Of a stretch of 64,000 nt of DNA, positions 1 through 63,850 are shown piece after piece. The stretch comes from Chrysophaeum taylorii. Taxonomy: Eukaryota; Sar; Pelagophyceae; Pelagomonadales; Pelagomonadaceae. The stretch is taken from assembly GCA_029834535.1 (NCBI GenBank), contig JAQMWT010000016.1, positions 1 to 64,000 on the forward strand. Direction: 5' to 3'. The notes below the pieces were generated by a model. That model did no database searches and was not told where the DNA came from. It was given only the letters and a program-made list of their open reading frames with translations. Position 1 is the first letter of the stretch. The number at the start of each line of letters is the position of its first letter. Both the position numbers and the translations under genes were made by a program.

Positions 1-225
1 GTTTCATCAATTTGCAAATAATAATCAAACGGTCGGTCTGCAGGACTCAACGCTGACGGCAAAGCTTCGCCGCTCAGGTGAAAATCCTTGGTCACAGAGT
101 TGTGCAGATCGAGTACTAATAAGGTCATCGTGTCTGGTGGCACGACGGACGCCAGTGTTTCAACGAGGTCGTCCTGGAGAAGCCGGCCCAATCAAAATCA
201 AGGGGCATCGTCAGCAACTCCGAAG

Positions 226-1143
226 TCATTTCAGATTCAGAGAGCTGTAATCGGAACGGTGCGGTCCTACGCGAAGCGGGACACGCGCAACGGTATAAGC
301 TGCGTCTGTCGCGGCTCGTGATGATCCTAAATTGTTCATCTGAAGTAAATGTCGTTCGTCGGCGTAGCCAAGTGCTGCGGCGAACTCTTGCTGCATATTC
401 TTGCAAGTCTTTGGAACTGCGCGCAAATGGAGCGGATGGCTGGAAACCAACAATCGCACGCGACAGCTCATCAAACTGGGAGTTATGTCGTAAAAATTGA
501 CGACGTACACGTAAGGGTGCAAACGTGCAACGTAAGAAATAATCGAAGCCTCCTGCTCTATCAACCACATGAAGAAACCAGCCATCTTGCATAATTTCAT
601 CGTCCAGTGGGTAGCGGTGACTCCTTTCCCAACATCTCTGGAGGTCAAGTTGCACAGAGCGGAGTGTACGCAGGGTGGCGACGCGACACACATCGACGAC
701 GACCATTCCGCGTAGGGTAAATAAGATTCGATCAACCGTAAGGTTGTAACATAGCGACCACACAGTGTGTGCTGCACCACAGGAATATTCGGAAAGTTCT
801 TGTGGTGGATCTGGTTGGCGGTGTCCGACGCATCGAGTGCTAGCACGACTCGAAACGACGTCCCACACATTTCGTTGGCTCGTTGGAGACCTAAAGTACT
901 GCCCCCGGCTCCACTGAACAGCATCACCACCTTGCGATAAGTGATTGGAAGCCATTGAACCTTTTCGTATCGGCGGCGGATCTCCGCTTCGGTGATCTCG
1001 CGGCATTTCTTTTCATCTTCTTCCGACCTTCGAGCGAAATCGTCGCTGCCTTCGGGTCGTTTGAGGGTGGACTTGTCCGCCATAGCGGTCGTAGCGTCCT
1101 TCTGCACCGTGCTCAGCAGCATCGGCGAAGGAGATTTTCGCAT
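226..1143 (-). other. Cytosine-C5 DNA methyltransferase-like domain of Ty3 copy A
   Basis: The minus-strand translation contains a SAM-binding motif of the FxGAGG type (VMLFSGAGGSTLGL) followed about 70 residues later by ASPPC, which matches motif IV of C5 cytosine methyltransferases with its catalytic Cys. The same segment, almost identical, lies at 50500-51300 in copy B between protease-like and RT regions. Assignment to the Dcm/Dnmt fold rests on motif order and spacing; activity is not implied. Confidence 0.75.
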
Positions 1144-3349
1144 CGCGTCAAGTGACTAGCGACAGAAACGGTGAAAGAAAGGTTCCCCTTGTCGTATCCT
1201 TCTTCACATTCTTTCGTAAGTTCGTTGATCGTAGAGACGTTCAACTCATCTTCGTACCTAACGATATCGCCAATCGCAAGGACTTCGCCTTGAGTGACGA
1301 CCGTCGGCACTTCTTCCACGGCAGTAACCGCAACACGAGCAGCGGACCGGTCGCGCTCTTCGCAAGAAGAACACATTCCTTCGACAACTCCCAACTGCTC
1401 GTTCTCAGCAAACGTAGCGACGAAAACCTGTCCTCTTTCCATAGGTTTCGACAAAATAACCGGTAGATTGTACGTTCGACCGGGCTCGATTTGAAGCGTG
1501 CGCGCAGCATAAGCTATTACTTCTCGCGCGTCTTCCCGGAGCTGGGGAGAATTTGGTCGTAGCATGTCCCCGCGTAGCCAAGGCTACCTTACGTTCCGGC
1601 GGCGGGCTTCGGAGATCTTTAATCGTGCTCAAACGAGCGTAAACTCGAGTCTTGACCAGGTCGAGACTCTGCCGAAAGGCATCGTGTTGATGATTGTAAA
1701 TCGGTACGGTTATCGGATTCGATCGTAAATAGATCGAAAGGTCACGATTGGTGCATCGACTCGTTCATCCTTAACTTTAATCTTCTTGCGCCCGTAGACG
1801 ACTTGGGTTCGAAAACAGATCCGATCATGGGGAAAATCCACGATGGCTTCTAAAACTCGCATATCGCGCCCTCCCAACAGGAACAGATAGTTCGTATCGG
1901 CTACAATAGCGACAATGGGGCAGCGATGTTGTCGGCGAGGGCGACCCGAATCGCGATCCAACGAAAGATCGTCGTCGTATTCAACCCTGATCCGTACAGC
2001 TTGCGCTTAATCGGAAGTTCGCCTTCATCGAAAATCAACTGATCTTTGGCCAACTTTCTGACCATTTCTCGGCAAATATAAGAAACATCTGCCATTCCAT
2101 CGACACCGATGGTCGTCGAGAATTTCGGTCCGTCACGATTCCTGTAGATGTGACAGGCTATAAACGTAAGAGTACCCGTATCTAAACAACTGAGGGTAAC
2201 CAAATCATCTTCGATCGTCTTGCCGTCTCGCGGCGTCAACGAAGTGTGAGCACATCGGGCTCTGACTCGCTCATCTCCGGGGTTGGGCATCGATACCGCG
2301 GCTTGAGCTTTCGTATCATCTGTTGTTGGCGTCATCGACATAACGCTCGCGGCAGCCTCTTTATCTGGCGGCTTCCGCTCTTCCTCCAAGACAATCTCAG
2401 AGGGAATCAGTGCTGGTAGGGGATCCTGGTCTTCGTAGTTCACGGAAGCAAAGGACCCCTCCCATAAATCATTCATTTCGTCTTTCCAGAATGCATCTGT
2501 AAATTCATTCGTCCTCGGTTGATCACCATCATCGGCGATCGGTTCCGTGTCGGCTGCGGCTTCGAGTCCGTAGCCGAGCGGTTGTTCTGGTGGCTTCTTT
2601 AGCAAGAAGTTCCGAGTTCTCGTCCACCAATCCTGCAGGTTCCACGTCGGCTCGTCTTCGTCCCACTCGAGAACGCTGCTAATCTTCTTCTTAAATCTAT
2701 CCTTTTCTTCCGGCGGCGTATCCGTGGCTCGATCCGTAGTAACCGAAACCGTTTCGGGGGGGTCCGCAGGAAAGATGGCGTCGTCCCCGACGTCAACTCT
2801 ATCGTAAGATCGTCGTCTGCATCACTCGCGGTGGTCATCGTCTCGTCAGTCGAATGAGCGCACGAGCGATCACTGCATAAATCCATGTCTGGCTCACCGC
2901 CAGTTCGGTCGCCAGCGGTCGTCTCTGGAGGGTCCAAAGATAAGCCGATAGCATCGAGGGCTTCCTCGTCAAAAATAAAAAGTGGGTCGTCCGTGGACGG
3001 CTCGTCATAACGTTATCGCGGACACTGGTTCACAGGTGCAGCTTCTTCATCTTCCGAATCTGAATCGCCTTCCCAGTATCGTGGAGCTTCGAGTTCCTCG
3101 CTCGAATCTTCGAGTTCATCGCTCGACATCTGCTCATAAATCTGTGCCAAAGACCGACGATTGGTCAGCACGTCGTTGGGTGGCTCGTCCATCGGCGGGC
3201 GAGCAAGATCTTCGAATGCGGCCGCGGCAAGGGCGTCGGCTGCGTCGTCGGTGCGGGTGTCCGTGTTCGGGTACACCATCACTCCTAATGGTAACTGTTG
3301 ACCGCAAGGGGTCGTAAACGCGAGCGTTGCGCTCAAAAAACCCAAATTA

Positions 3350-4356
3350 TATTGGTGTCGGCCTCCGTCGTATTCGTCGTCGCGCGATCGGCGTCGTCTG
3401 TGCCGGCGCGAACTTCGACTGGGGCTCTTGTTATCTTTGTCTCTCTCTGGCGTCAGTTCGGCAGGTCCTAGTACCTCTGGATCGTCCCTGTAAGCGACTG
3501 GTGCTCCCAAGCCTATCCGAACTGTCTCAATCGTCTCGTCTATCGAAACATCGACGCATGCGTCGTCTTCTTGCCAGAACTCCGACCAAACGTAAATTAA
3601 ATCTCCGTTGGCGAATAAATCCGTGCCTCGGGGTCGGAATTGCACTTCTTTCTGCTCTGGCGGATTCTTCCTCAGGAAACAGTGAGCTCGTATCCGTATC
3701 GTCGGTACGCTCATCTTCGTATTATCCATGCTGATCGTCCCATCCAAATTCGATTCCGGGCGGCAGCTATACTCATCCCTCATAGTATGTTCGGGATCTT
3801 TCTTTATCACGTAGCCATCATCATATGCAGGCTGAAAATCTTTGAACTCTTCGTTCGTGAGTAATACGCCCGCGCTTTCACTGAGCTCCAAAGGCAGTTC
3901 TTGCGTTATAAGATTCTTCATCTCTTCCGCTTTCGTATTCATTTTCTCGGCCGTTTCACTCGGCCTATTATCCACTCCATCGCTTCGAATACCGGCAATC
4001 GCCTCGTCACTAAAAATGTCGGCACACGAAATGTCTGCCATCGTCAAAGAGAATAAAACATCTGCAAAAACGTCTGCAGGTTCGTCGGGGGGCCCTGCAA
4101 AAGAAGAAGGCGTCGTCCCCGACGTCATATCTGTCAAAAAATGGCCACCAAAGGGCACGCGACGTTCGATGGGTGTGTACTCCGGTGCGCGCTTATCATT
4201 CGAGGTAATCCTCTGCGACGCATCGTTGATCGATCGTGGAGACGAAGTGCCATCCACTTGAATGTCCGGAGGTAAACTCATAGCATCGAGCGTAGCAGCG
4301 GCGGGTCCCTTACTGTGGGCGTCATCGGCTGCACGGGGCTCGTAAATCGGATTCAC
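3350..4356 (-). other. Variant internal segment of Ty3 copy A in place of the capsid-type region
   Basis: This open acidic stretch has no counterpart in copy B. The two copies agree again from about 3340 leftward, where both encode a stretch beginning SATLAFTTPCGQ. Copy B instead has a capsid-like gag ORF (46750-47814) at the corresponding place. The segment has no domain that I recognise. It may be a second lineage of gag-region sequence or the product of recombination between related elements. Confidence 0.5.
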
Positions 4357-4362
4357 ACATAA

Positions 4363-5163
4363 CTACGGCGCGTCGTCAAAACCGATGGTTGTGTCAGCTG
4401 ACGACAAATCATATCGTGCCACCAACGGTGACACCGGGTTAGAAGCGGTTGTCGGCTTCGGCCCGTAGTTTAACGACGTTTCGGTCAGATTCTCCGATTC
4501 TGTGGGGATTTTGGTTTGGGTGAGCTCCTTCGACTTGGATTGCTCTTGCTCGTAGTTTAACGACGCTTCGGTCATCTCGGACGACTCGTCGTCGTCGTCG
4601 CGCGGCTTCCTAACTTTCGCTCGCGTTCGCGTGGGCGGCGGTACCTCCGAGGGTCGGAATTCTCCCTCAAGACCGCTCGCTCGCCTCGGGCGACTCGGTG
4701 TACGCAATTCATCCCTCTCGCGGGTCAACCATCGTACTTGCTCGTGTATTTTATCAAATCGAGCGTGTACGTGCCGCATTTGCTCTTGCATTATTTTTAT
4801 CTTCTTCCGTTGTAGCCGCTCTTTTCGTTCGTTCTCTTCCCCTATTTGTTTTAAAAGTCGTTCTTGCGCGCGTTCGTTCTCTTCGCGTAATGCCCGCAAG
4901 TGAGCCTCGTAGAACTCATTCATTTTCGTTGCATCCGGGGGTCCTGCACGCGTTGACGGAGCTGTCGATCGTCCTCCCGTCGGTCTCTCCGTGGGCTTGC
5001 CGTCGTTGTAGTCTAGCTCTTCTTCCTCGTCGTCAACTTCTGTGTCGTGCTCTTCTTCATCATCGTCATTATCATCATCATCATTCCGCTCGCTCTTCTC
5101 ATCCTGACGGCTTGGCGGTTCTTCATATCGTAGCTGCTCGACGGCAGCATCATCGTCTTCCAT
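4363..5163 (-). other. Coiled-coil gag-region protein part of Ty3 copy A
   Basis: The translation starts with an acidic run and then has a charged heptad-like segment rich in Glu, Arg and Lys (residues about 85-160), as expected for a coiled coil. Copy B has a close relative at 46129-46596. Such coiled coils are common in the N-terminal gag part of algal Ty3 elements. Confidence 0.6.
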
Positions 5164-5626
5164 ATCGGCTCTGGCTCGTTCTAGTCGGCCGAGATCAGAG
5201 CGGGTCCAAAATGGTTGAGTCGTCGTCGTTCTCTGCTCCTTCGACTCTGGAACTTCTAATCGTCCACGACACGTGTAATATCGTCGTTGCGTGCGTCTTC
5301 CACAGACAAATCTATCAGTCCGGTGGGCGGCAGAATTCGTCTCTGCCCGGCAATCAATGCCTTATCCGTGAGTTGCGATCTCACTCCGCTCGCCTGCGGG
5401 AGCGGCACCCGGGTTGCGGGTCGGCTAGCACCGAATCGCGCGTCGTCACTTCCGACGACTAACGTATCCGGCCGGGGAACTTTCGCACGGCAGTGGTCCT
5501 TCTGGAATTCCTTGTCGGCGCGCTTGATCAGGGCGCGCACGGCTTGTCCGGACCGTGTAGAGAATGCAAGATGCACTAGTTCGCTGCGACCTATATAGTC
5601 GCTCGAATCTCATATCCTTCACCACC

Positions 5627-5966
5627 TGTGGCGTAAGGAGAATTTTAGGGGCTACCTGACGTGCCTTCGAATCCTGGCTCGCCGCTCGCGTCCGTGCCCT
5701 TGGTGGAGTCACTGGACGAGGATGGCCGTTCTCCCGCCACACAACCACAAACAACTTCCGTGCCTGGTCCTCAGAACTTGAGGATCGGCTGTTGCTTTAT
5801 GAGCAAGGTATATGGATCGAAACACAGAAATCAGGGTGACACATGTCACGGAAAAGGAAGATGATGTCATAAAGAAAACTGACATCATCACAACGGAGTA
5901 GGGTGCCCCTGATAAGGGGGGGGCTAGAAGAGGGGTAAGCCTTAGGAGGCGGGAGTTGCCGCCACA
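5627..5966 (-). repeat. 5' LTR of Ty3 copy A
   Basis: About 340 bp, ending in the short inverted repeat TGTGGCG...CGCCACA and nearly identical to the two LTRs of copy B (45306-45669 and 55467-55799). On the minus strand it is followed by GGTGGTGAAGG, the same place where copy B has its presumed primer-binding region. Confidence 0.85.
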
Positions 5967-45305: not shown

Positions 45306-45669
45306 TGTGGCGGCAACTCCCGCCTCCTACGGCTTACCCCTCTTCTAGGGCCACCCCTTATCAGGGGTACCCTACTCCGTCATGATGATGTCAGTTTTCT
45401 TTATGACATCATCTTCCTTTCCCATGACATCATCTTCCTTTCCCGTGACACGTGACATGTGTCACCCTGATTTCTGTTTTTCGATAATATCTTAATCATA
45501 AAGCAACAGCCGATCCTCAAGTCGTGAGGACCAGGCACGGAAGTTGTTTGTGGTTGTGTGGCGAGAGAACGGCCATCCTCGTCCAGTGACTCCATCAAGG
45601 GCACGGACGTGAGCGGCGAGCCAGGATTCGAAGGCACGCCAGGTAGGCATAAATTCTCCTTACGCCACT
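45306..45669 (+). repeat. 5' LTR of Ty3 copy B
   Basis: Starts TGTGGCGGCAACTCC and ends TTACGCCACT. It is longer than the 3' copy because of a short tandem duplication of CATGACATCATCTTCC. GGTGGTGGAGG follows, the presumed primer-binding region. Confidence 0.88.
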
Positions 45670-46128
45670 GGTGGTGGAGGAATACGAGATTCGAGCGACC
45701 ATATCGGTCGCAGCGGACGAGTGCATCTTGCATTCTCTACACGGTCCGGACAAGCCGTGCGCGCCCTGATCAAGCGCGCCGACGAAGAGTTCCAGGAGGA
45801 CCACAGCCGTGGGAAAGTACCCCGGCCGGATACGTTGGTCGTCGGAGGAGACGACGCGCGATTCGGCTCTAGCCGACGCGCAACCCGGGTACCGCTGCCG
45901 CAGGCGAGCGGAGTGAGATCGCAACTCACTGAGGCATTGATTGCCGGGCAGAGACGAATGCCGCCCACCGGACTGATAGATCGGTCGGTGGAAGACGCGC
46001 GCGACGACGATATTACGCGTGTCGTGGACGAGTAGAAGTCCCAGAGTCGAAAGAGCACGAGAACGACGACGACTCACCCATTTTGGACCCGCTCTGATCT
46101 CGGCCGATTAGAACGAGCCAGAGCCGAT

Positions 46129-46207
46129 ATGGAAGACGATGATGCTGCCGACGAGCAGACGCGATACGACGAACCGCCAAGCCGTCAGGATGAGACGAGC
46201 GAGAGGA

Positions 46208-46238
<31 letters not shown>

Positions 46239-46596
46239 CGACACCGAAGTTGAAAACGAGGAAGAAGAGCTAGACTACAACAACGGCAAACCGGCGGTGA
46301 GACCGTCAGGAGGACGACCAACTACCCCGTCAACGCGTGCACGAACTTCGGACGCAACGAGAATGAATGAGTTCTACGAGGCCCATTTGCGTGCGTTGCG
46401 GGAAGAAAACGAACGTTCGCAGGAACGACTTTTACGACAAATAGCGGAAGGAAGCGATCGAAAGGGGCGGCTACAGCGGAAGGAGGCAGAAGAATTACGA
46501 GAGCAAGTGCGGAAGGCCAACGCTCGAGCAGACGACCCCCAAGATCAAGTAACTTCATTGACCCGAGAAAGGGACGAGCTACGTACGCCGAGTTGA
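46129..46596 (+). other. Coiled-coil gag part of Ty3 copy B
   Basis: An acidic start (runs of Asp) followed by Glu/Arg/Lys heptads; a close relative of 4363-5163 in copy A. Confidence 0.6.
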
Positions 46597-46749
46597 TCGA
46601 GGCGAGCGAGCAGCCCGGGGTCCCGAGCTGAGGAAGAGCCGCCAACTACACGATCACGCTCGAAAGCTAGGAAGCCGCGCTATGAAGACGACGATTACGA
46701 AGAAAAGGAGGAGACGCATGACGACGGAAGAATCGACAACCTAAAGTTC

Positions 46750-47814
46750 TTGATGGCTTTCACGGATCGGTTCGCCAGCGCGTTAACCAAACACGATCGC
46801 AACAAGGATCGGCGATCGACCTCCGGATTAAAGACCGAAACCTTTAAACTTGTTCTTGATGGGCTCGATCAGGACCAGTTCGATTTAGATGCGGGCGCGG
46901 TGATGAGCACGTTAGCCGAAGACCATTTTAGCATGGAGAAGCTGCGGTACCTGCTGCCCGCGAGCCTGCGCGACATAGTCGCACCGATTTTCCGGGAACA
47001 CCTGAAGAAGTACGAAGATTTGTGTAAAGATCTCGATCAACCAGCGTCTTTTTATTTACGGCGGGATATCGACGATGAGGAGTACGGTTCAGTGGTACGA
47101 CGAATACGACGACTGAACGAGAAGTACTGCATCAAGATTTTAAGATATTTCCGAGAGAGTTGCCCATTGCCGATGACGGCAGAGGAATTACTACGAAAAC
47201 TGCAAGGCACGACCCAAGCGACCGTTCCGAAACGATCTGGGGAACGCCACGTGCATACTTATTGCATCAAATTTCAGAAAGAGGCCATGGCGTACTGCTC
47301 TGTGGCCAATCGAGATCTCAACGACGTGGAGATCATCTCTTTCTTGATACGTGGACTGGAGTCCAGCGAATTGAAATCCCGCGTGCGAACCATGCGCAGC
47401 AGGCACCCGACGACGTATAATATGTTCACGTCGACGTTGTCATTGATTACACGGCTCGAGAACGATTTTGCAACCGTCATGGCGGAGCGGAACAGCCGAA
47501 ATCCACCGAGCGCGTCGGGCGGGAAGCCGCAGAAGCTACCGTCTGGACGCGGAGGACGAGCGCTCGCCTCGGGGTCGAAGGATAGAACGACGAAATATGA
47601 GGCATTGCGTCTAGAAGAGAATCCGAAAAAGTGGTTCGAGAGCACATGCAAGGATTGTGGGTTTTTCTTAACGACCCACGAAAAGGATGAACACGGGAGC
47701 CGGGTCATTTGTAACCGCGAGCCTGATGACTATTATGTGGCGATGTGTACGTACATCGAAGACAGCAAAAAGCCCATCTCTCGGGGACGATGGGAGCCGA
47801 CAGAAGAAAGATAA
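46750..47814 (+). CDS. Capsid-like gag ORF of Ty3 copy B
   Basis: The 354-residue open frame is helical through residues about 1-260, as capsid domains of Ty3 elements are, and ends with a small Cys-rich part (STCKDCGFFLTTHEKDEHGS then a further Cys) that may bind nucleic acid. It lies between the coiled-coil part and the protease region, which fits gag. The segment has no counterpart in copy A. Confidence 0.65.
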   Translation: MMAFTDRFASALTKHDRNKDRRSTSGLKTETFKLVLDGLDQDQFDLDAGAVMSTLAEDHFSMEKLRYLLPASLRDIVAPIFREHLKKYEDLCKDLDQPASFYLRRDIDDEEYGSVVRRIRRLNEKYCIKILRYFRESCPLPMTAEELLRKLQGTTQATVPKRSGERHVHTYCIKFQKEAMAYCSVANRDLNDVEIISFLIRGLESSELKSRVRTMRSRHPTTYNMFTSTLSLITRLENDFATVMAERNSRNPPSASGGKPQKLPSGRGGRALASGSKDRTTKYEALRLEENPKKWFESTCKDCGFFLTTHEKDEHGSRVICNREPDDYYVAMCTYIEDSKKPISRGRWEPTEER

Positions 47815-49299
47815 TCATTCGCGTGACGACGGCAGTTCCAATGCCACCCTCGGTTCGACCGCCGCTCACGATATTCAGAGCAGACTCAACGACATGGGCA
47901 CGCAGCTGACCACGGTTATGGATTCCGTGAAGCATTTGAAAGATGGACACGGCCGATCGTCTTCGACACGACCGGGCCGTCGAGATAGCCGGAGCCCCCG
48001 ACGCCGCGACAAGAGCCGTAGCAGCTCGCGTCCGCACCGACGGAATGAAAGCCGGAGCTCCAGCAGACATTCACGCCGGCGACGAAGATCTCGCGATCGA
48101 AATTCGGACGATGGCCGTTACCGGGAAGACTCGGGACATTCGTCTGCGACGTTAGCGTTTACGACCCCTTGCGGTCAACAGTTACCATTAGGAGTGATGG
48201 TGTACCCGAACACGGACACCCGCACCGACGACGCAGCCGACACCCTTGCCGCGGCCGCATTCGACGATCTTGCTCGCCCGCCGATGGACGAGCCACCCAA
48301 CGACGTGCTGACCGATCGTCGGTCTTTGGCGCAGATTTATGTGGAGATGTCGAGCGATGAACTCGAAGAGTCGAGCGATGAACTCGAAGCTCCACGATAC
48401 TGGGAAGGCGATTCAGACTCGGAAGATGAAGAAGCTACACCTTGTGAACCAGTGTCCGCGATAACGCTGCTTGACGAGTCGTCCACGGACGACGCACCGT
48501 TTGTTTTTGACGAGGAAGCCCTCGACGCTATCGGCTTATCTTTGGACCCTCCAGGGACGACCTTTGGCGACCGAACTGGCTGTGAGCCAGACAAGAATGT
48601 TTGCAGTGATAGCTCGTGTGATCATTCGACGGACGAGACGATGACCATAGCGAGTGCTGCAGACGACGATCTTACGATAGACTTGACGTCGGGAACGAGG
48701 CCATCTTTTCCTGCGGACCCCCCCGAAACGGCTTCGGTTACGACGGATCGAGCCACGGACACGCCGCCGGAGGAAAAGGACAAATTTAAGAAAAAGATAA
48801 GCAGCGTTCTCGATGGGGACGAAGACGAGCCGACGTGGAACCTGCAGGATTGGTGGACGAGACCTCGGAACTTCTTGCTAAAGAAGCCACCAGAACAACC
48901 GCTCAGCTACGGACTCGAAGCCGCAGCCAACACGGAACCGATCGCCGATGATGAGGATGATCAGCCGATGACGAATGAATCTACGGATGCATTCTGGAAA
49001 GACGAAATGAATGAGTTATGGGAGAGGTCCTTTGCTTCCGAGAATAACGAAGATCAGGATCCGCTACCAGCACTGATTCCCTCCGAGATTGTCATGGAGG
49101 AAGAGCGGAAGCCGCCAGATAAAGAGGCTGCCGCGAGCACGACGTCGATGACGCCAACACCAGATGATACGAGAGCCCAAGCCGCGGTATCGATGCCCAA
49201 CCCCGGAGATGAGCGAGTCAGAGCCCAGTGTGCTCACACTGCGTTTACGCCGCGAGACGGCAAGACGATCCAAGATGATTTGGTTACCCTGAGTTGTTT

Positions 49300-50293
49300 G
49301 GATGCGGGTACTCTTACGTTTATGGCCTGTCACATCTACAGGAATCGTGACGGACCGAAATTCTCGACGACCATCGGCGTCGATGGAATGGCAGATGTTT
49401 CTTATATTTGCCGAGAAATGGTCAAAAAGTTGGCCAAAGATAAGTAGATTTTCGATGAAGGCGAGCTTCCGATTAAGCGCAAGCTGTACGGATCGGGGTC
49501 GAATACGACGACGATCTTTCGTTGGATCGCGATTCGGGTCGCTCTCGCCGACAACATCGCCGCCCCCATTGTCGCTATTGTGGCCGATACGAACTATCTG
49601 TTCCTGTTGGGAGGGCGCGATATACGAGTTTTAGGAGCCGTCGTGGACTACCCCCACGATCGGATCTGTTTTTATCGAACCCAAGTCGTCTACGGGCGCA
49701 AGAAGATTAAAGTCAAGGATGAACGAGTCGATGCACCCATCGTGACCTTTCGATCTATTTACGACCGAGACCCGATAACCGTGCCGATCTACAATCATCA
49801 ACACGATGCCTTTCGGAAGAGTCTCGACCTAGTCAAGACTCGAGTTTACGCTCGCTTGAGCACGATTAAAGATCTCCGCAGCCCGCCGCCGGAACGAACG
49901 GTAGCCTTGGCTACGCGGGGACATGCTACGACCAAATTCCCCCCAGCTCCGGGAGAAGCCGCGCGAGAAGTAGTGGCTTACGCTGCGCGCACGCTTCAAA
50001 TCGAGCCCGGTCGAACTTACAATCTACCGGTTATTTTGTCGAAGCCTATGGAAATGGGACAGGTTTTCGTCGCTACGTTTGCTGAAAACGAGCAGTTGGG
50101 AGTTGTCGAAGGAATGTGTTCTTCTTGCGAAGAGCACGACCGGTCCGCTGCTCGGGTTGCGGTTACTGCCGCGGAAGAAGTGCCGACGGTCGTCACTCAA
50201 GGCGAGGTTCTCGCGATTGGCGATATCGTTCGGTACGAAGATGAGTTGAACGTCTCTACGATCAACGAACTTACGAAAGAATGTGAAGAATGA
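49300..50293 (+). other. Aspartic-protease-like region of Ty3 copy B
   Basis: TIGVDGMADVSYICREMV resembles the active-site strand and following loop of retroviral-type proteases, and LLGGRDIRVLGAVVDYPHD resembles the second half (the GxDxL/I...A.VD pattern). Preceded by a long acidic region from 47687 that both copies share. Confidence 0.6.
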
Positions 50294-50338
50294 TACGACA
50301 AGGGGGATCTTTCTTTCACCGTTTCCGTCGCTAGTCAT

Positions 50339-53300
50339 TTGACGCATTGCGACGCGTCTCCCCCGCCGATGTTGCTGAGTACGGCGCAGAAGGACGCTAC
50401 GACCGCTATGGCGGACAAGTCCACCCTCAAACGACCCGAAAGCGACGACGATTTTGCTCGAAGGTCGGAAGAAGATGAAAGAAAGTGCCGCGAGATCACC
50501 GAAACGGAAATCCGCCGCCGATACGAAAAGGTTCAGTGGCTTCCAGTCACTTATCGAAAGGTGGTGATGCTGTTCGGTGGAGCCGGAGGCAGCACTTTAG
50601 GTCTCCAACGGGCCAACGAAATGTGTGGGACGTCGTTTCGAGTCGTGCTAGCACTCGATGCGTCGGACACCGCCAACCAGATCCACCATAAGAATTTTCC
50701 GAATATTCCTGTGGTGCAGCACACACTGTGTGGTCGCTATGCTACAACCTTACGGTTGATTGAATCTTATTTACCCTACGCGGAATGGTCGTCGTCGATG
50801 TGTATCGCGTCGCCACCCTGCGTACACTCCGCTCTGTGCAACTTGACTTCCAGAGATGTTGGTAAGGGAGTCACCGCTACCCACTGGACGATGAAATTAT
50901 GCAAGATGGCTGGTTTCTTCATGTGGTTGATAGAGCAGGAGGCCTCGATTATTTCTTACGTTGCACGTTTGCACCCTTACGTGTACGTCGTCAATTTTTA
51001 CGACATAACGCCCAGTTTGATGAACTGTCGCGTGCGATTGTTGGTTTCCAGCCATCCGCTCCATTTGCGCGCAGTTCCAAAGACTTGCAAGAATATGCAG
51101 CAAGAGTTCGCCGCCGCGCTTGGCTACGCCGACGAACGACATTTACTTCAGATGAACAATTTAGGATCATCACGAGCCGCGACAGACGCAGCTTATACCG
51201 TTACGCGTGTCCCGCTTCGCGTAGGACCGCACCGTTCCGATTACAGATCTCTGAATCTGAAAATGACTTCGGAGTTGCTGACAATGCCCCTTGATTTTGA
51301 TTGGGCCGGCTTCTCCAGGACGACCTCGTTGAAACACTTGGCGTCCGTCGTGCCACCAGACACGACGACCTTATTAGTACTCGATCTGCACAACTCTGAG
51401 ACCAAGGATTTTCACTTGAGCGGCGAAGCTTTGCCGTCGGCGTTGAGTCCTGCAGACCGACCGTTTGATTATTATTTGCAAATTGATGAAACCACCCTTC
51501 GTCACGTACAAGTTCCGCTGTTAAACACGCGCACACGTGTCGTAAGATGGGTATCGACTGATGATCTCCAAGATCGCACCAAATGGGAACCTCCAGAGGT
51601 ACCGTTGATTCCGCCTGCAACAGATGAGCCGGGGACGTCTCATGCTTCTTCTGCTGCCCCCCCCCGACAACCAAATTTGGACGTTCCGCCAGATCCTGAG
51701 CGAGATCGGGAACCGAAGATTAAGAGCGAGCCGAAGGTTCGTGTCAAAGGCGAGAGGATCAACAAAAGCCACCCGGAAGTGAGACTAAAATATGAGAAAA
51801 AGTTTGATGTGCCATGGAAGGATGCGCCGCGCGATGCTGAGGGTGCACCGCTACCGCAAACTCCTGAGCATGTCAAGGATAACGAAGCCATGAAAATTCA
51901 AATTCCTACGAAGGAAGAAGTTGACAAGGCTGTTCAGGAGTTGGGAATTCCTGACAATCCGCACTTAGATGACGACGCGAAGCTGATGCTACGTCACTGT
52001 GTGCAATATTTTTGGGCCTTTTTCGACCCGATTATGAGACCTGTGGACTCACCTCCTGTGTCTCTACGATTCAAAGACGCGAATCCGCGACCGATTAAGA
52101 TGACGCCCTACCGACTGACGCCTGCGAAGCTCGATTGTCTCCGCAAGCAGATCAGCGAGTGGTGCCGGGATGGAGTCATTCGTCCGGCCAACTCACCTTG
52201 GGGCTTTCCTGTGTTGATGCTTCCGAAGAAAGGAGCTGAGATTGGAACGTCAAACGCGTTCCGTGCTGCAGTTGACTTACGTCAGCTCAACGATCAATTG
52301 GTCAATGACAGTTGGCCGAACATTCGACAAGATGATGCTTTAGCTTTTCTCGCTATGCGACGATGGCGGACATGCATTGATATTAGATGGGGATACCACA
52401 ACCTTCGTCTGGATCCGGCAGCGCAAGACGCTGTCACGATGGTTAGCCCACTTGGCGCTCATAGTTTCTTGCGATTACCTCTAGGTGTGAAGACGGCCGG
52501 AGCTCTTTTCTGCAAGCAAATGGCGAGCGACCTTTCGAAATGGATGTATCGAGACTTGGTTGCGTTTGTTGACGATATTATGATGGGATCCGACGATCTT
52601 CATCGACATTTACAAGTTTTGATCGAAGTGATGTGTCATTTGGCACAGAGAGGGTACAGCGGTCGAACCGCGAAGTTCCACCTTCTCAAGGATGATATAG
52701 AATTTCTGGGACACATTTCGACCCCAGAAGGCTTGAAGCCGAATCCGAAGACGCTGGAAGCACTGCAGAAGATGCCGATTCCAGGTACTTTGCCGAATAC
52801 TTCCCCGAAGACCCAGATACGCTCTTTCATCGGCATGAGTAATTACTGCCGGCGATATGTGAAGGGCTACTCGAAGATCGTGGAACCGCTGAGACGATTA
52901 TGCCTCGAAGGTGTAAAGTTCGAGTGGACGCCCGAGTGTCAGAAAGCTTGGGATACGATTATTGAAGCTTTGGTTGATTCCAGAGGAGTCTACCACCCCG
53001 ATTATGATCTGCCTTTTCAGATCCGATCCGATGCTTCCAAGGATGGACTTGGAGCATATCTCTTCCAGATTGTCGAAGTCAAGGACGATGCCGGAAGAGT
53101 GACTCGAGAAGAACGAGTGATTGAATACTGGAGCCGAGCTGTGCCGAAGGAGATGCGCAATTATGAGCCCCGTCGGTTAGAGCTGCTGGCAGTTATACTT
53201 TCTCTAGAGCACTTTCGAGCCTACATCGAAGGGCACCGGACTGTTTTGGAGACCGATCACCGAAATTTGACGTTTTTACGTAAGGCGACGCACTCGTCTG

Positions 53301-54964
53301 GGCAGCTTGCTCGTTGGGCGATGCGCCTCGCCAATTTTGACCCTGAACTTGGTTACAAGCCGGGAAAGTCACCGGGAATGAGTATCCCTGACTGTCTCTC
53401 CCGCAATCCGATAGATCATGTCATCGAGACTGACGAGTTTGGAGAACCTTTGAACCACGCTTATTTGGTGTTCCAAGAGCTTCCCCGACCTGTTGATGAC
53501 CGAGGAATTCCCGCCTCCGGCTGCCACTTCATAATGTCGTTTGTTACGACCGAACTGCCGGAAGACGAGGAAGAAGATCCTGAAAAGGATCCGATGAAAT
53601 TGGCTACGTCTCACGCTACGAGACAACGTCGGAAGAACCGTGCGCGCGATGAGCCACAGATCTTCAAGGACGCAGCCGCTTACAAAGATTATATCGATAA
53701 GATACCCGATAATATGACGCTCGCTGAGATCGCACGTGAGCAAGAATCTGATGCTACTTGCGAGGATATTCGCTACCGAATGGCCCAAGGTCAGACGCCG
53801 CGACGTTCCCGAGCGAACGAACGATTCGAAGTCGTTAAAGACGTTCTTTACCGCATTTCTGCTGATTTGCACCCGATGATTGTTGCACCTGCTACGTTGC
53901 GCAAGCGCATTATTCGACTCTACCATGACACTCCGGTTAACGGTGGTCATATGGGACGTCACAGTACCGTCCAGGCTATCCAAGAACGATTTTGGTGGCC
54001 CCACATGTCGAACGAAGTTGGAGTCTTCATTGCTGAATGTTTAGTTTGCCAGAAAGCTCGTACGCCTGAGCCGAAACGAGCTGGACTCTTGCAACAGCCC
54101 GTCTACGATGGTGATGGCGCTGTTCTCTGCATGGATTTATTTGGACCCTTGCCCAGCGCTGGTCCCGAGACGTATCTTCTAGTATTTTTTGATCCGTTCT
54201 CGCATTTCTTGATTCTGGATGTTTTGAACGATAAGACTGCTGAGTCCGTCCTCGAGTCTTTTGTCATTAACATCCTCCTCAAGGGCTACTTGCCCCAGAT
54301 GATTCGTACCGACAACGGTAAAGAGTTCGTGAACAAGTTGATGCGCGAGTTTTGCCATCTCTTCAACACACGATACCAAACTACGATTCCTTATCATGCC
54401 CAGTCGAACCCGGCTGAGCGTGTTAACCGATTTATCAAGGCCTTCCTCCGTGCTTGCCTTCAGGGCCGGAACATCACGGATTGGCCCGACTTTGCCCATT
54501 ATATTGCGTTTTGTTACAACCGCAAGTTTATTCCAGGCACGCAGATTTCTCCCTTTATGCTGCGCCTGAACCGTCAGCCGATGTTGCCTACTGGCTACAC
54601 GCTTATGGACTTTGATACGCAATTGTTGCCGAAGACTCGCTCTGATGCAGTCGCCAAAACTCGTGAACGATTGAAGTATTATACGAAGATCGTCCGCGAG
54701 GCTCGTGATAAAGCTTTGAAGAAACAACGATTGGCCTACAATGCCGATCATGTCGATGTTGAATACAAGGAAGGATCGCACGTTTTGCTCTACATTCCTT
54801 TCCTTCAGAACAAACTTCGACCGGAATGGCGAGGACCGTTTATTATCAAGGAACGCCTTTCCCCGGTCACCTATAGGATTGAGTCTCTCGACTCTCCGCC
54901 CGAAGAACGACGTGTTCATGTTAGTCAGATCACGCCTGTGATGGTACCTCCGATCGTTGATTAA
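50339..54964 (+). CDS. Pol polyprotein of Ty3 copy B: methyltransferase-like, RT, RNase H, integrase
   Basis: The 1541-codon frame holds, in order: a C5-methyltransferase-like domain (about 65-330); a linker rich in Pro and Lys; reverse transcriptase (about 575-830, with MTPYRLTPAKLDCLRKQI, NSPWGFPVLMLPKKG and the FVDD active site near 742-745); RNase H (about 880-1010, starting FQIRSDASKDGLGAYLF); an integrase zinc module with H-H-C-C near 1198-1240; and an integrase core with CMDLFGPL, RTDNGKEF and the Glu in NPAERVNRF. A GPFIIKERLSPVTYRIE stretch near the end is the usual post-integrase beta module. The RT-RNase H-integrase order is that of Ty3/gypsy. Products would be cut out by the element's protease and act in the virus-like particle and nucleus. 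Confidence 0.93.
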   Translation: MTHCDASPPPMLLSTAQKDATTAMADKSTLKRPESDDDFARRSEEDERKCREITETEIRRRYEKVQWLPVTYRKVVMLFGGAGGSTLGLQRANEMCGTSFRVVLALDASDTANQIHHKNFPNIPVVQHTLCGRYATTLRLIESYLPYAEWSSSMCIASPPCVHSALCNLTSRDVGKGVTATHWTMKLCKMAGFFMWLIEQEASIISYVARLHPYVYVVNFYDITPSLMNCRVRLLVSSHPLHLRAVPKTCKNMQQEFAAALGYADERHLLQMNNLGSSRAATDAAYTVTRVPLRVGPHRSDYRSLNLKMTSELLTMPLDFDWAGFSRTTSLKHLASVVPPDTTTLLVLDLHNSETKDFHLSGEALPSALSPADRPFDYYLQIDETTLRHVQVPLLNTRTRVVRWVSTDDLQDRTKWEPPEVPLIPPATDEPGTSHASSAAPPRQPNLDVPPDPERDREPKIKSEPKVRVKGERINKSHPEVRLKYEKKFDVPWKDAPRDAEGAPLPQTPEHVKDNEAMKIQIPTKEEVDKAVQELGIPDNPHLDDDAKLMLRHCVQYFWAFFDPIMRPVDSPPVSLRFKDANPRPIKMTPYRLTPAKLDCLRKQISEWCRDGVIRPANSPWGFPVLMLPKKGAEIGTSNAFRAAVDLRQLNDQLVNDSWPNIRQDDALAFLAMRRWRTCIDIRWGYHNLRLDPAAQDAVTMVSPLGAHSFLRLPLGVKTAGALFCKQMASDLSKWMYRDLVAFVDDIMMGSDDLHRHLQVLIEVMCHLAQRGYSGRTAKFHLLKDDIEFLGHISTPEGLKPNPKTLEALQKMPIPGTLPNTSPKTQIRSFIGMSNYCRRYVKGYSKIVEPLRRLCLEGVKFEWTPECQKAWDTIIEALVDSRGVYHPDYDLPFQIRSDASKDGLGAYLFQIVEVKDDAGRVTREERVIEYWSRAVPKEMRNYEPRRLELLAVILSLEHFRAYIEGHRTVLETDHRNLTFLRKATHSSGQLARWAMRLANFDPELGYKPGKSPGMSIPDCLSRNPIDHVIETDEFGEPLNHAYLVFQELPRPVDDRGIPASGCHFIMSFVTTELPEDEEEDPEKDPMKLATSHATRQRRKNRARDEPQIFKDAAAYKDYIDKIPDNMTLAEIAREQESDATCEDIRYRMAQGQTPRRSRANERFEVVKDVLYRISADLHPMIVAPATLRKRIIRLYHDTPVNGGHMGRHSTVQAIQERFWWPHMSNEVGVFIAECLVCQKARTPEPKRAGLLQQPVYDGDGAVLCMDLFGPLPSAGPETYLLVFFDPFSHFLILDVLNDKTAESVLESFVINILLKGYLPQMIRTDNGKEFVNKLMREFCHLFNTRYQTTIPYHAQSNPAERVNRFIKAFLRACLQGRNITDWPDFAHYIAFCYNRKFIPGTQISPFMLRLNRQPMLPTGYTLMDFDTQLLPKTRSDAVAKTRERLKYYTKIVREARDKALKKQRLAYNADHVDVEYKEGSHVLLYIPFLQNKLRPEWRGPFIIKERLSPVTYRIESLDSPPEERRVHVSQITPVMVPPIVD
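50540..51300 (+). other. Cytosine-C5 DNA methyltransferase-like domain in Ty3 copy B
   Basis: VVMLFGGAGGSTLGLQRA (50560-50614) matches motif I of C5-methyltransferases, LALDASDTANQIHHKNFPN fits motif II-III (acidic residue after the second strand, then the N-F-P stretch), and ASPPC (50807-50821) matches the catalytic motif IV. A later CRVRLLVSS is placed like the QxRxR motif VIII. A clear target-recognition domain is not identified. C5-methyltransferases have been reported inside retrotransposons of some other algae and dinoflagellates, so capture by a retroelement has precedent. Confidence 0.78.
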
Positions 54965-55425
54965 ACCATCCGCCATCCCGAAGAAACCTTCCGTGATGAT
55001 TACCAGCACGGTAAGTTTGTTGTTTTCCGGATTCCTGACAGGAAGCGCTCTGATTGGCGCAAGAAGATTTATGTTGCCGAAGTTTACAAGCCTTACGATT
55101 ACCAGCATGATCGTGCTGCTCTACATTTCTATTCCGATTTGGGTCCGAACGATGATGTCGCTTATTTCAAGCCGACCTCCCACCTTTCGCACCGCAAACT
55201 TAAGCCCGAGATCAAGGACGTTGAAGGTCGCAGTTTCACCGACAAGTCCAGAATCTCATCCAACACAACTCCTTGTGTCACGGATTTCGCTCCGCACGAG
55301 ATTGATGTGTTAATCCCCAAGTTTACTTTACGCAGTGGTCGAGTTCCTGAACCGATCATCACCCGCGTTTACCAGAAGATTCGTTCACGAGATGCTCGTA
55401 AGGCGAAGCCGCGCTCCTCGCGCTA
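54965..55425 (+). other. C-terminal tail region of Ty3 copy B
   Basis: About 150 open codons after pol. FVVFRIPDRKRSDWRKKIYV, AEVYK and AALHFYSDLG resemble the strand pattern of small chromo/tudor-like barrels found at the end of some Ty3 integrases, where they steer integration to particular chromatin. This is a resemblance only. Confidence 0.35.
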
Positions 55426-55466
55426 GCAGCTCGCTGGGGCAGCTCGAATTCTTACCAGGGGAGTCC

Positions 55467-55799
55467 TGTGGCGGCAACTCCCGCCTCCTAAGGCTTACCC
55501 CTCTTCTAGGACCCTCCCTTATTAGGGGCACCCTATTCCGTCATGATGATGTCAGTTTTCTTTATGACATCATCTTCCTTTCCGTGACATGTCACCCTGA
55601 TTTCTGTGTTTCGATAATATCTTAATCATAAAAGAAACAGCCGATCCTCAAGTTGTGAGGACCAGGCACGGAAGTTGTTTGTGATTGTGTGGCGAGAGAA
55701 CGGCCATCCTCGTCCAGTGGCTCCATTAAGGGCACGGACGCGAGCGGCGAGCCAGGATTTGAAGGGACGCCAGGTAGGCCAAATTCCCCTTACGCCACA
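55467..55799 (+). repeat. 3' LTR of Ty3 copy B
   Basis: 333 bp, TGTGGCG...CGCCACA. A short purine stretch (AGGGGAG) lies just before it, as expected for a polypurine tract. Confidence 0.88.
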
Positions 55800-61960: not shown

Positions 61961-62329
61961 CATTTGATCATATGATTCGCAATCAGGGTCAACTACGGAA
62001 TATCACTACCGCGACGATGGCCAATCCCGATTACCGTCTTCTACGGTTTTCATCTTTGCTATCGACTCGCGTATTCCCACGCTCGACCCTGACACCCGAT
62101 GTGTCATGGATCCATCAAGACGACTCTACTCCAGCCAAACTTCAAACGTCACCTGTTCCCACCGCCACCCCACCACCACCGTTGGTTGTATCGCCTGGAC
62201 GGCTCAATCTTTTTCAACCGTCGCCACTGCTGTGATGCAGAGCAACCGTCTCTACGACGGCGGAAGAGGAGGCACATTGAAGGAGCGACCAGCGTATTTC
62301 AAGACGTGCGCAGTTCCGTGGGCGGACGC

Positions 62330-63850
62330 GCCTAACGACGAACATGGTTATCCTGTACCAGTGGTGCCTCCTCATTTAGCAGATCAGCATGCAGTCATCC
62401 CTCCGACCGTCGCGCAGGTCGAAGAGGTGATGGCTGCGCTGGGCATTACAGACCATCCCGCTTTAAATGAGGATGAAAAACGGATGATGCGACACTTGCT
62501 TTCCTACTCGTGGGCATTCTTTGATGACGTGATGAGACCCGTTGATTCGCCTGAGGTCACCCTCCGGTTCAAAGAGGACAATCCGAGCCCGATTAAGTTG
62601 TCGCCGTATCGGTTGTCAAAGGAGAAGATCGAGTGCTTGAGACTTCAAATCGAGGAATGGAGCCGAGACGGAGTTGTCCGTCCCGCGAACTCTCCTTGGG
62701 GTTTTCCTATCCTGATGCTGCCTAAGAAAGGGGCTGAGCCAGGCACTTCCAACGCTTACAGAGCGGCTGTCGACCTGCGGCGCCTCAACAAATTGCTCAA
62801 GGATGACAGTTGGCCGAGCGTGAGCATGACCGACGCGTTGATGTTTCTCACCGACAAGTTCCGTCGTTCTAGCATGGACATCCGATGGGGTTACCACAAT
62901 TTGCGATTGTCAGCGGACGCGCAGGATGTAGTGACCTTCACTAGTCCTTTGAGCATTCAGCTATATGCGTTTACCTTTGGGAGTCAAGCCTGGGCCTGTT
63001 CTGCAAGCAACTCAACACCGATCTGTCGAAGTGGTTGTACCGTGACCTGTGGCTATATCGACGACATTTTGGCTGGGCATGCAGACACTAAGAGTCATTT
63101 GCAATGCCTTGTTCAAGTCATTCCCCACTTGGCGTCGAAAGGGTATAGCGGCAAGGTTAAGAAGATCCACTTCATGAAGGAGGTCATTGAGTTCTTGGGG
63201 CATTTGTCTACCCCGAATGGACTTCTCCCGTCACCAAGATCGACGGAGGCCATCCGGCATATGCCAATCCCTGGTACTTTGTCAGATGCTGATCCCAAAA
63301 GCAAGTCCGCTCCTTCCTTGGGGGGAGGTTTTGTCGTCGTTATGTGCGCAATTTCGCGCGAGTCGCGGACAGACAGTTGACTTTGCCAGATGTTAAGTTC
63401 GAGTGGACGAAAGAGTGTCAAGAGGCCGGATGCCATCATCGAAGCTATTGTTTTCTAAGGGCATTTACCATCCGGACTACTCATTGCCGTTCTACATTCG
63501 GACAGATGCATCTGCGCATGGATTAGGCGCTTACTTGTTTCAGAAAGTGCCAGTCGTTGGTGACGATGGAAAAGAACGGGTGGAGGAGAGTTATCGAGTA
63601 CTGGAGTCGAACCGTGCCTAAGTCGATGAGGAAGTATGATCCTCGGCGCTTGGAACTCCTCGCAGTACTCTCTGCTCTCGAAAATTTCCGATTTTATATC
63701 GAAGGTCATCAGACAAAGTTAGAGACGGATCATCGTAACTTAACGTTTCTGGATTCGAATCATACGTCTGGACAGTTAGCACGATGGGCTATGCGGCTTG
63801 CTGCGTTCGACCGGGAGCTCGGATACAAACCTGAAATTCCCGGGCATGCG
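62330..63850 (+). other. Reverse-transcriptase and RNase H region of Ty3 element C
   Basis: LRFKEDNPSPIKLSPYRLSK, RPANSPWGFPILMLPKKGAE, SMDIRWGYHNLRLSADAQD, YIDDILAGHAD, IEFLGHLSTPNGLLPSP, then RTDASAHGLGAYLFQK and LELLAVLSALENFRFYIEGH are all canonical and co-linear with copy B. Confidence 0.85.

Follow-up and report, generated by a model that had tools for sequence, protein, structure and literature searches.

Does the pol frame at 50339-54964 carry a C5-cytosine methyltransferase (MTase), and, if it does, what could such a domain do for the retrotransposon that bears it? An earlier note had read this locus as a Ty3/gypsy element whose pol has a built-in C5-MTase-like domain and had suggested that the element might mark its own copies or interfere with host methylation. 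We analyzed the locus within the window, by which we mean the whole 64,000-nucleotide stretch, which represents contig C16 of a 70.8-Mb genome in 697 contigs. The chlorophyll-antenna family is large in this genome (84 PF00504 matches), and the one member compared matched fucoxanthin-chlorophyll a/c proteins at 8e-70. From these antenna genes, we infer that the genome is that of a chlorophyll a/c, ochrophyte-like alga.

Architecture of the gypsy element

The pol frame encodes 1541 aa on the + strand and lies inside a Ty3/gypsy element flanked by long terminal repeats (LTRs) at 45306-55799. Its reverse transcriptase (RT), RNase H, and integrase follow the gypsy order, with the RT, RNase H, H2C2, and rve families all above the Pfam cutoffs (Table 1). 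The two LTRs agree at 309 of their 331 aligned sites. A target-site duplication sought at the flanks of the window copy gave no match (GCATC versus GGTCG), and, given these unmatched flanks, the window copy may be recombinant. Past the pol stop, an in-frame open segment of 153 aa (54965-55423) matched no Pfam family and is possibly an integrase C-terminal reader domain.

Copy A, a second and partial copy of this element, is 94.3% identical to the window element across 1-3321 and 85.7% identical across 4675-5966, and its MTase region at 202-1122 contains two stops. Host genes were observed between the element copies at 7684-40000, including those for JmjC_2, metallophosphatase, aminotransferase, amino-acid transporter, PIH1, and glutamine cyclotransferase proteins. 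A further RT-bearing frame at 62106-63380 (PF00078, 3.3e-8) is 74% alike to the element RT in DNA over 176 bases.

Table 1. Features of the MTase-bearing elements (positions are those of the window unless a locus is named)
Feature	Position	Strand	Basis or remark
Partial second copy of the same gypsy element (copy A)	1-5966	-	runs to contig start
5' LTR of Ty3/gypsy element (starts TGTGGCG)	45306-45668	+	direct repeat of 55467-55799
gag-like frame, named from position alone	46750-47814	+	ORF; 0 Pfam families above cutoff
Protease-like segment (GVDGMADVSYI ... LFLLGGRDIRVLGAVVDY)	49370-49750	+	by eye; stop at 49445-49447 interrupts window copy
pol frame: MTase - linker - RT - RNase H - integrase	50339-54964	+	ORF and Pfam
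C5-cytosine-methyltransferase-like domain, upstream of RT, RNase H, and integrase	about 50528-51388	+	profile matches
Motif I, SAM binding: FGGAGG in window copy	50573-50590	+	FSGAGG in 37/38 copies
Motif IV, putative catalytic cysteine, ASPPC	50807-50821	+	ASPPC 37/38, ASPLC 1/38
Motif VI-like LIEQ, glutamate at place of ENV glutamate	50927-50938	+	38/38 copies; equivalence by eye
Motif VIII-like RVR	51029-51037	+	RVRLL 37/38, RARLL 1/38; equivalence by eye
Motif X-like VVPP, motif IX-like segment before it	51347-51358	+	38/38 copies
Reverse transcriptase, PF00078	52223-52717	+	E 3.8e-12
RNase H, PF17917	53000-53338	+	E 1.1e-25
Integrase H2C2 zinc domain, PF17921	53888-54064	+	E 2.5e-18
Integrase core, PF00665	54116-54397	+	E 7.7e-12
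3' LTR, ends CGCCACA	55467-55799	+	direct repeat of 5' LTR
Ty1/copia copy with C5-MTase-like domain between protease-like segment and integrase	L046:3097-8952 (G000:C96)
Further copies of copia MTase family	L039-L044, L047, L048

The MTase-like domain had been thought to start pol. This position proved to be an artifact of the window copy, which is broken by stops at 49445-49447 and 50291-50293. A protease-like motif was present in 17 of 30 fetched gypsy copies, and in 13 of the 30 the frame ran without a stop from this segment into the MTase; these copies therefore support a location of the gypsy MTase-like domain between the protease-like segment and RT. The segment at 49370-49750 is a putative retropepsin, assigned by motif rather than by database match. 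The usual protease motif is D-T/S-G-A. We observed DGMA in the gypsy element (window 49370-49410) and DGGA in a copia element described below (L046), with a glycine after the aspartate in both.

Relationship of the gypsy domain to C5 methyltransferases

When the METHYLTRANSFERASE domain (340 aa, C5-MTase-like) was scored alone, PF00145 was matched at 23.5 bits (E value of 4.3e-5; cutoff of 22), whereas the whole 1541-aa ORF reached 18.1 bits (E value of 0.002), below that cutoff. The PF00145 check proposed for this translation thus came out above the cutoff for the isolated domain and short of it for the complete 50339-54964 ORF. All 23 aligned gypsy copies matched PF00145 at an E value of ≤1 (best of 2.3e-6), PF00145 was the sole Pfam family matched by more than one of them, and the longer copies L011 and L016 scored 22.3 and 22.0 bits. 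In PADLOC, the gypsy domain matched 14 families, all of which were cytosine or type II methyltransferases or DrmMII (best, DruM/MTase_II at 1.5e-9), and the two PHROGs families matched were both DNA methyltransferases (best of 1.1e-6).

No protein was found at an E value of ≤1e-3 when residues 1-330 of the ORF were searched against 5.8 billion proteins, and a search of the same collection with the alignment of gypsy domains (A1) recovered one protein, P0002, at an E value of 0.026. P0002 is a C5-MTase of 351 aa (PF00145, 1.4e-67), and among its 120 listed relatives, the 3 with organism names are all Firmicutes. A profile of the bacterial P0002 family scored the window domain at 30.9 bits, 500 shuffled versions of it reached at most 4.2 bits, and hhalign aligned A1 with this family at an E value of 1.7e-11. 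Non-MTase controls gave hhalign E values of 0.12 for gag, 0.11 for RT, and 0.49 for integrase. By BLASTP, the gypsy domain and P0002 were 36% identical over 86 aa spanning motifs I-IV (E value of 1e-13), with a weak second piece in the motif IX-X region (E value of 0.023). Unlike the gypsy domain, P0002 is free-standing and longer and has canonical ENV and QxRxR-type motifs. Significant similarity was confined to motifs I-IV, approximately residues 64-153 of the domain. Over these motifs, our sequence comparisons show that the gypsy domain belongs to the C5-MTase superfamily, and Pfam, PADLOC, PHROGs, and hhalign together bear out the original reading that the pol of this Ty3/gypsy element includes a C5-MTase-like domain.

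Structural comparisons were less informative. A search of PDB sequences with A1 was not significant; the sole MTase-type chains listed were Dnmt2 (E values of 0.14 to 0.17, the best being 0.14), and no DNMT3 chains occurred at an E value of ≤1. A single-sequence structure model of the gypsy domain was uninformative (pLDDT of 35.9). An AlphaFold2 model built on an alignment of bacterial C5-MTases had a pLDDT of 50.9 and was poor in the middle, where the alignment itself is off. In Foldseek, the 50 matches listed for this model were all C5-MTase structures or complexes with TM-scores of ≤0.44, the 4 of 1130 matches at an E value of ≤0.001 were all DNMT2, and DNMT3 chains occurred among the weaker fold matches, in a test that is partly circular because the alignment behind the model consisted of C5-MTases.

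Canonical C5-MTases have ENV in motif VI, QxRxR in motif VIII, and GNxVPP in motif X. In the 38 copies inspected, out of at least 126, we identified divergent counterparts by eye, namely EQE (VI), CRVR (VIII), and ASVVPP (X), whose cores were kept in 38 of 38 copies; motifs VIII and X are weak. Beyond motif IV, no profile matches were obtained except for the weak IX-X piece. Of the two motifs named in the earlier note, ASPPC was seen as described and recurs in 37 of the 38 inspected copies; FxGAGG is present as well, with the correction that the window copy has FGGAGG and the other 37 of 38 have FSGAGG.

The genome also contains two host genes for proteins of this superfamily. L001 looks like Dnmt2 by its motifs. 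In L002 (G000:C621:15462-18998), PF00145 lies within an open frame of 2086 aa; the catalytic site reads GTSC, the MTase is followed by a cysteine-rich segment, and the protein might be DNMT5-like. An origin of the gypsy MTase from either host gene was rejected, as hhalign E values of 0.001 for A1 with Dnmt2-like L001 and 0.34 with the L002 DNMT are far weaker than that for the bacterial family. No relatives of the gypsy domain were confirmed in searches of viral_contigs or phages for a viral source, and a plasmid search yielded five records with weak pieces (E values of 0.02 to 0.9).

Selection, CpG content, and possible roles of the domain

The gypsy MTase domain occurs in the genome at least 126 times (1010 candidates, 126 scored), a number that may include allelic contigs because some contigs look like duplicates, as with the matches on C10 and C297 at nearly the same place with equal scores. 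Counted from the listing, 25 of the 126 scored copies have a stop inside the MTase domain. The copies examined formed two groups, one with 84-100% identity and one with 76-80% identity. Between subfamilies (30 x 8 loci), dN/dS was 0.066 for the MTase (240/240 pairs), 0.075 for RT (232/240 pairs; median of pairs of 0.026), and 0.174 for the linker (232/240 pairs); these between-subfamily values are less biased by selection of loci, but their dS of 1.7 is near saturation. Within groups, MTase dN/dS was 0.18 and 0.14, values that are biased toward intact domains because the loci were picked by MTase score, the 30 close loci being those scoring best by MTase protein. The RT value within the first group was 0.56, which was presumably raised by frameshifted copies read in one frame. 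Taking these dN/dS values as estimates, the MTase domain is clearly retained under purifying selection.

The earlier note had proposed that the element could mark its own copies. We looked for CpG decay among gypsy copies, both by CpG observed/expected and by C>T changes, and found none. CpG observed/expected was 1.32 in the window element, 1.25 in the whole window, and 1.21 and 1.16 in the coding stretches of the two gypsy groups; the 5' LTR alone (363 bases) had 0.83. Stable CpG methylation with the usual deamination of 5-methylcytosine would make CpG stand out in C>T changes. Among single-copy changes in 29 gypsy copies over about 3.9 kb (L038, shorter and with many gaps, was excluded), C>T occurred at 79 of 454 CpG sites and at 155 of 871 other C sites, the latter comprising 61/275 for CpT, 49/273 for CpC, and 45/323 for CpA. 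C>T at CpG is thus not in excess, which argues against lasting CpG self-methylation of inserted copies, and a durable CpG mark placed by the element on its own integrated copies was not borne out, as the coding part is also not CpG depleted. Marking of unintegrated cDNA or RNA is possible, as is methylation that is nonmutagenic, transient, or in another sequence context.

We lean slightly toward a reading in which a multicopy Ty3/gypsy family carries a prokaryotic-type C5-MTase between protease and RT, under selection, that methylates the nucleic acid of the element itself during replication. Methyl-transfer activity is suggested by the conserved catalytic-type residues together with selection. 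The MTase domain would be freed, or kept as a Pol fusion, within the particle, where it would use SAM to methylate cytosines in nucleic acid belonging to the element, most likely nascent cDNA, or else RNA or primer. The mark would have a brief role, protecting or licensing cDNA or steering integration. Because inserted copies are without CpG decay, the mark would not be kept on them as a heritable CpG mark.

A less likely alternative is a degenerate C5-MTase fold that has lost its methylating activity and is retained within Pol for binding nucleic acid or SAM. Recognition of motifs I-IV only by profiles, EQ instead of EN in motif VI, a domain as cut of 286 aa compared with 351 aa in P0002, and copies without a methylation footprint all agree with such decay. 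The retention of the catalytic-type residues C, E, and RxR in 38 of 38 inspected copies and a dN/dS as low as that in RT speak against it. Methylation of the element's RNA or tRNA primer by an RNA methyltransferase seems improbable to us. Dnmt2 is a tRNA methyltransferase, and Dnmt2 chains were the only MTase-type chains in the PDB sequence search, but at E values of 0.14 to 0.17; the absence of a DNA footprint in the C>T test would also fit activity on RNA, but the bacterial C5-MTase family fits the domain far better than the host Dnmt2-like protein does (hhalign, 1.7e-11 versus 0.001).

We regard as quite doubtful that the domain provides lasting methylation of host chromatin or integrated copies, whether for silencing, camouflage, or interference with the host. 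Maintenance of such marks by a host enzyme is known from other algae, and host L002, with its PF00145 domain, could in principle maintain them. Retrotransposon DNMTs can methylate CG de novo, according to PMC5890265, and the 5' LTR alone has the low CpG ratio given above. Against these points stand CpG observed/expected values of 1.16-1.32 in the element and coding copies, with 1.25 for the window, and C>T counts at CpG that resemble those in the CpT, CpC, and CpA contexts. Chance resemblance of motifs within a gypsy spacer, with which the whole-ORF PF00145 score below the curated cutoff would agree, is extremely improbable and was dismissed given three profile libraries, the 500 shuffles (best of 4.2 versus 30.9 bits), the hhalign controls, and conservation across subfamilies.

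A copia-borne family and comparison with known systems

A genome search with PF00145 listed 57 matches (474 candidates, 123 scored), and 10 of the 55 loci other than L001 and L002 were fetched in long form (L039-L048). Of these 10 loci, 9 share an IIAGGL motif, accompanied by FTLPCQHLS and by a motif VI of the ENV or ENA type. In L046, a single 1952-aa frame contains PF00145 (1.1e-7) and RVT_2 (1.6e-38, above cutoff), with an rve match between the two at 17.2 bits, below the cutoff of 32.6, and the MTase comes after a protease-like DGGAS motif identified by eye; L046 is the single scanned copy from which the copia RT assignment derives. The copia domain had its best PADLOC match to a bacterial type II model (MTase_II, 2.3e-9) and matched PHROGs at 7.8e-9. 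Its PDB matches were to bacterial C5-MTases and were weak (E values of 0.028 and up), with no DNMT3 chains listed. The copia MTase dN/dS was 0.132 (36 pairs, 9 copies). CpG observed/expected was 0.98-1.12 in L039-L048 compared with 1.26-1.31 in LHC gene loci, a mild loss.

A profile comparison of the gypsy and copia MTases detected no relation (P of 0.7%), making two captures likelier than one. A common MTase for both families was therefore set aside for want of detectable similarity, although a very old shared origin is possible. Nor did the analysis show the copia domain to be closely linked with the P0002 family: despite an hhalign E value of 2.8e-4, the P0002-family profile scored the copia domain at -0.7 bits, lower than the top score among 500 shuffles (2.2), and the same profile gave 9.2 bits for L001 and 12.8 bits for L002. 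No relatives of the copia domain were confirmed in viral_contigs. Capture at the same site in two LTR superfamilies without a heritable CpG mark would suggest a recurrent, general advantage. We tentatively propose, with rather less confidence than for the gypsy family by itself, that gypsy and copia elements each captured a different prokaryotic-type C5-MTase just after protease, that these MTases act in replication without leaving a heritable CpG mark, and that cytosine methylation of retroelement cDNA or RNA has been of recurrent advantage in this lineage.

C5-MTases in retrotransposons have been described before. De Mendoza et al. 2018 (PMC5890265) report KnitGypsy-Dnmt3, with a Dnmt3 in a gypsy pol, along with LINE and DIRS cases. 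One retrotransposon class, SymbioDIRS-Dnmt3, showed de novo CG methylation in yeast; for the KnitGypsy-Dnmt3 and SymbioLINE domains, no activity was found in yeast, a result that its authors call inconclusive, and the role of retrotransposon methyltransferases is left unclear by that paper (PMC5890265). A 2025 paper (PMC12344493) refers to DNMT3 in Copia and DIRS elements and to orphan DNMTs; its mention of an LTR Copia-DNMT3 cites the 2018 paper, which itself says Gypsy. In contrast to such a Copia-DNMT3, the copia MTase found here has its best matches among bacterial type II MTase models (2.3e-9). Other enzymatic or reader domains are reported to have been added to gypsy polyproteins, namely NADAR and Tudor domains in Ectocarpus (PMC12477816) and an m6A demethylase in orchids (PMC9289625), and the elements analyzed here resemble these in carrying an extra domain but differ in the enzyme. 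A literature search, mostly of titles and abstract openings and with subscription papers and preprints mostly outside its scope, recognized, among the matches listed, no gypsy or copia element from a stramenopile that carries a C5-MTase of prokaryotic type.

The gypsy family is most like KnitGypsy-Dnmt3 of Klebsormidium nitens (PMC5890265) in being an LTR Gypsy that encodes a C5-MTase within its Pol frame, is under purifying selection, and has several copies. Compared by description rather than by sequence, the two differ in that KnitGypsy-Dnmt3 has a eukaryotic Dnmt3 in a charophyte and the family described here has a domain of prokaryotic type and resides in an alga that has fucoxanthin-chlorophyll antenna genes. 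Like SymbioLINE-Dnmt and SymbioDIRS-Dnmt3 of Symbiodinium, our families are retrotransposon-borne C5-MTases in more than one element class per genome, but they reside in LTR gypsy and copia elements instead of LINE and DIRS elements, and the gypsy copies are not CpG depleted as SymbioLINE copies are (PMC5890265). Two MTase-bearing LTR families at high copy number, under strong selection and without CpG decay in a compact 70.8-Mb genome, separate methylation during replication from marking of the inserted copy. A DNMT-bearing Gypsy was already known; the bacterial type of the enzyme, the type of host, and its occurrence in two superfamilies look new.
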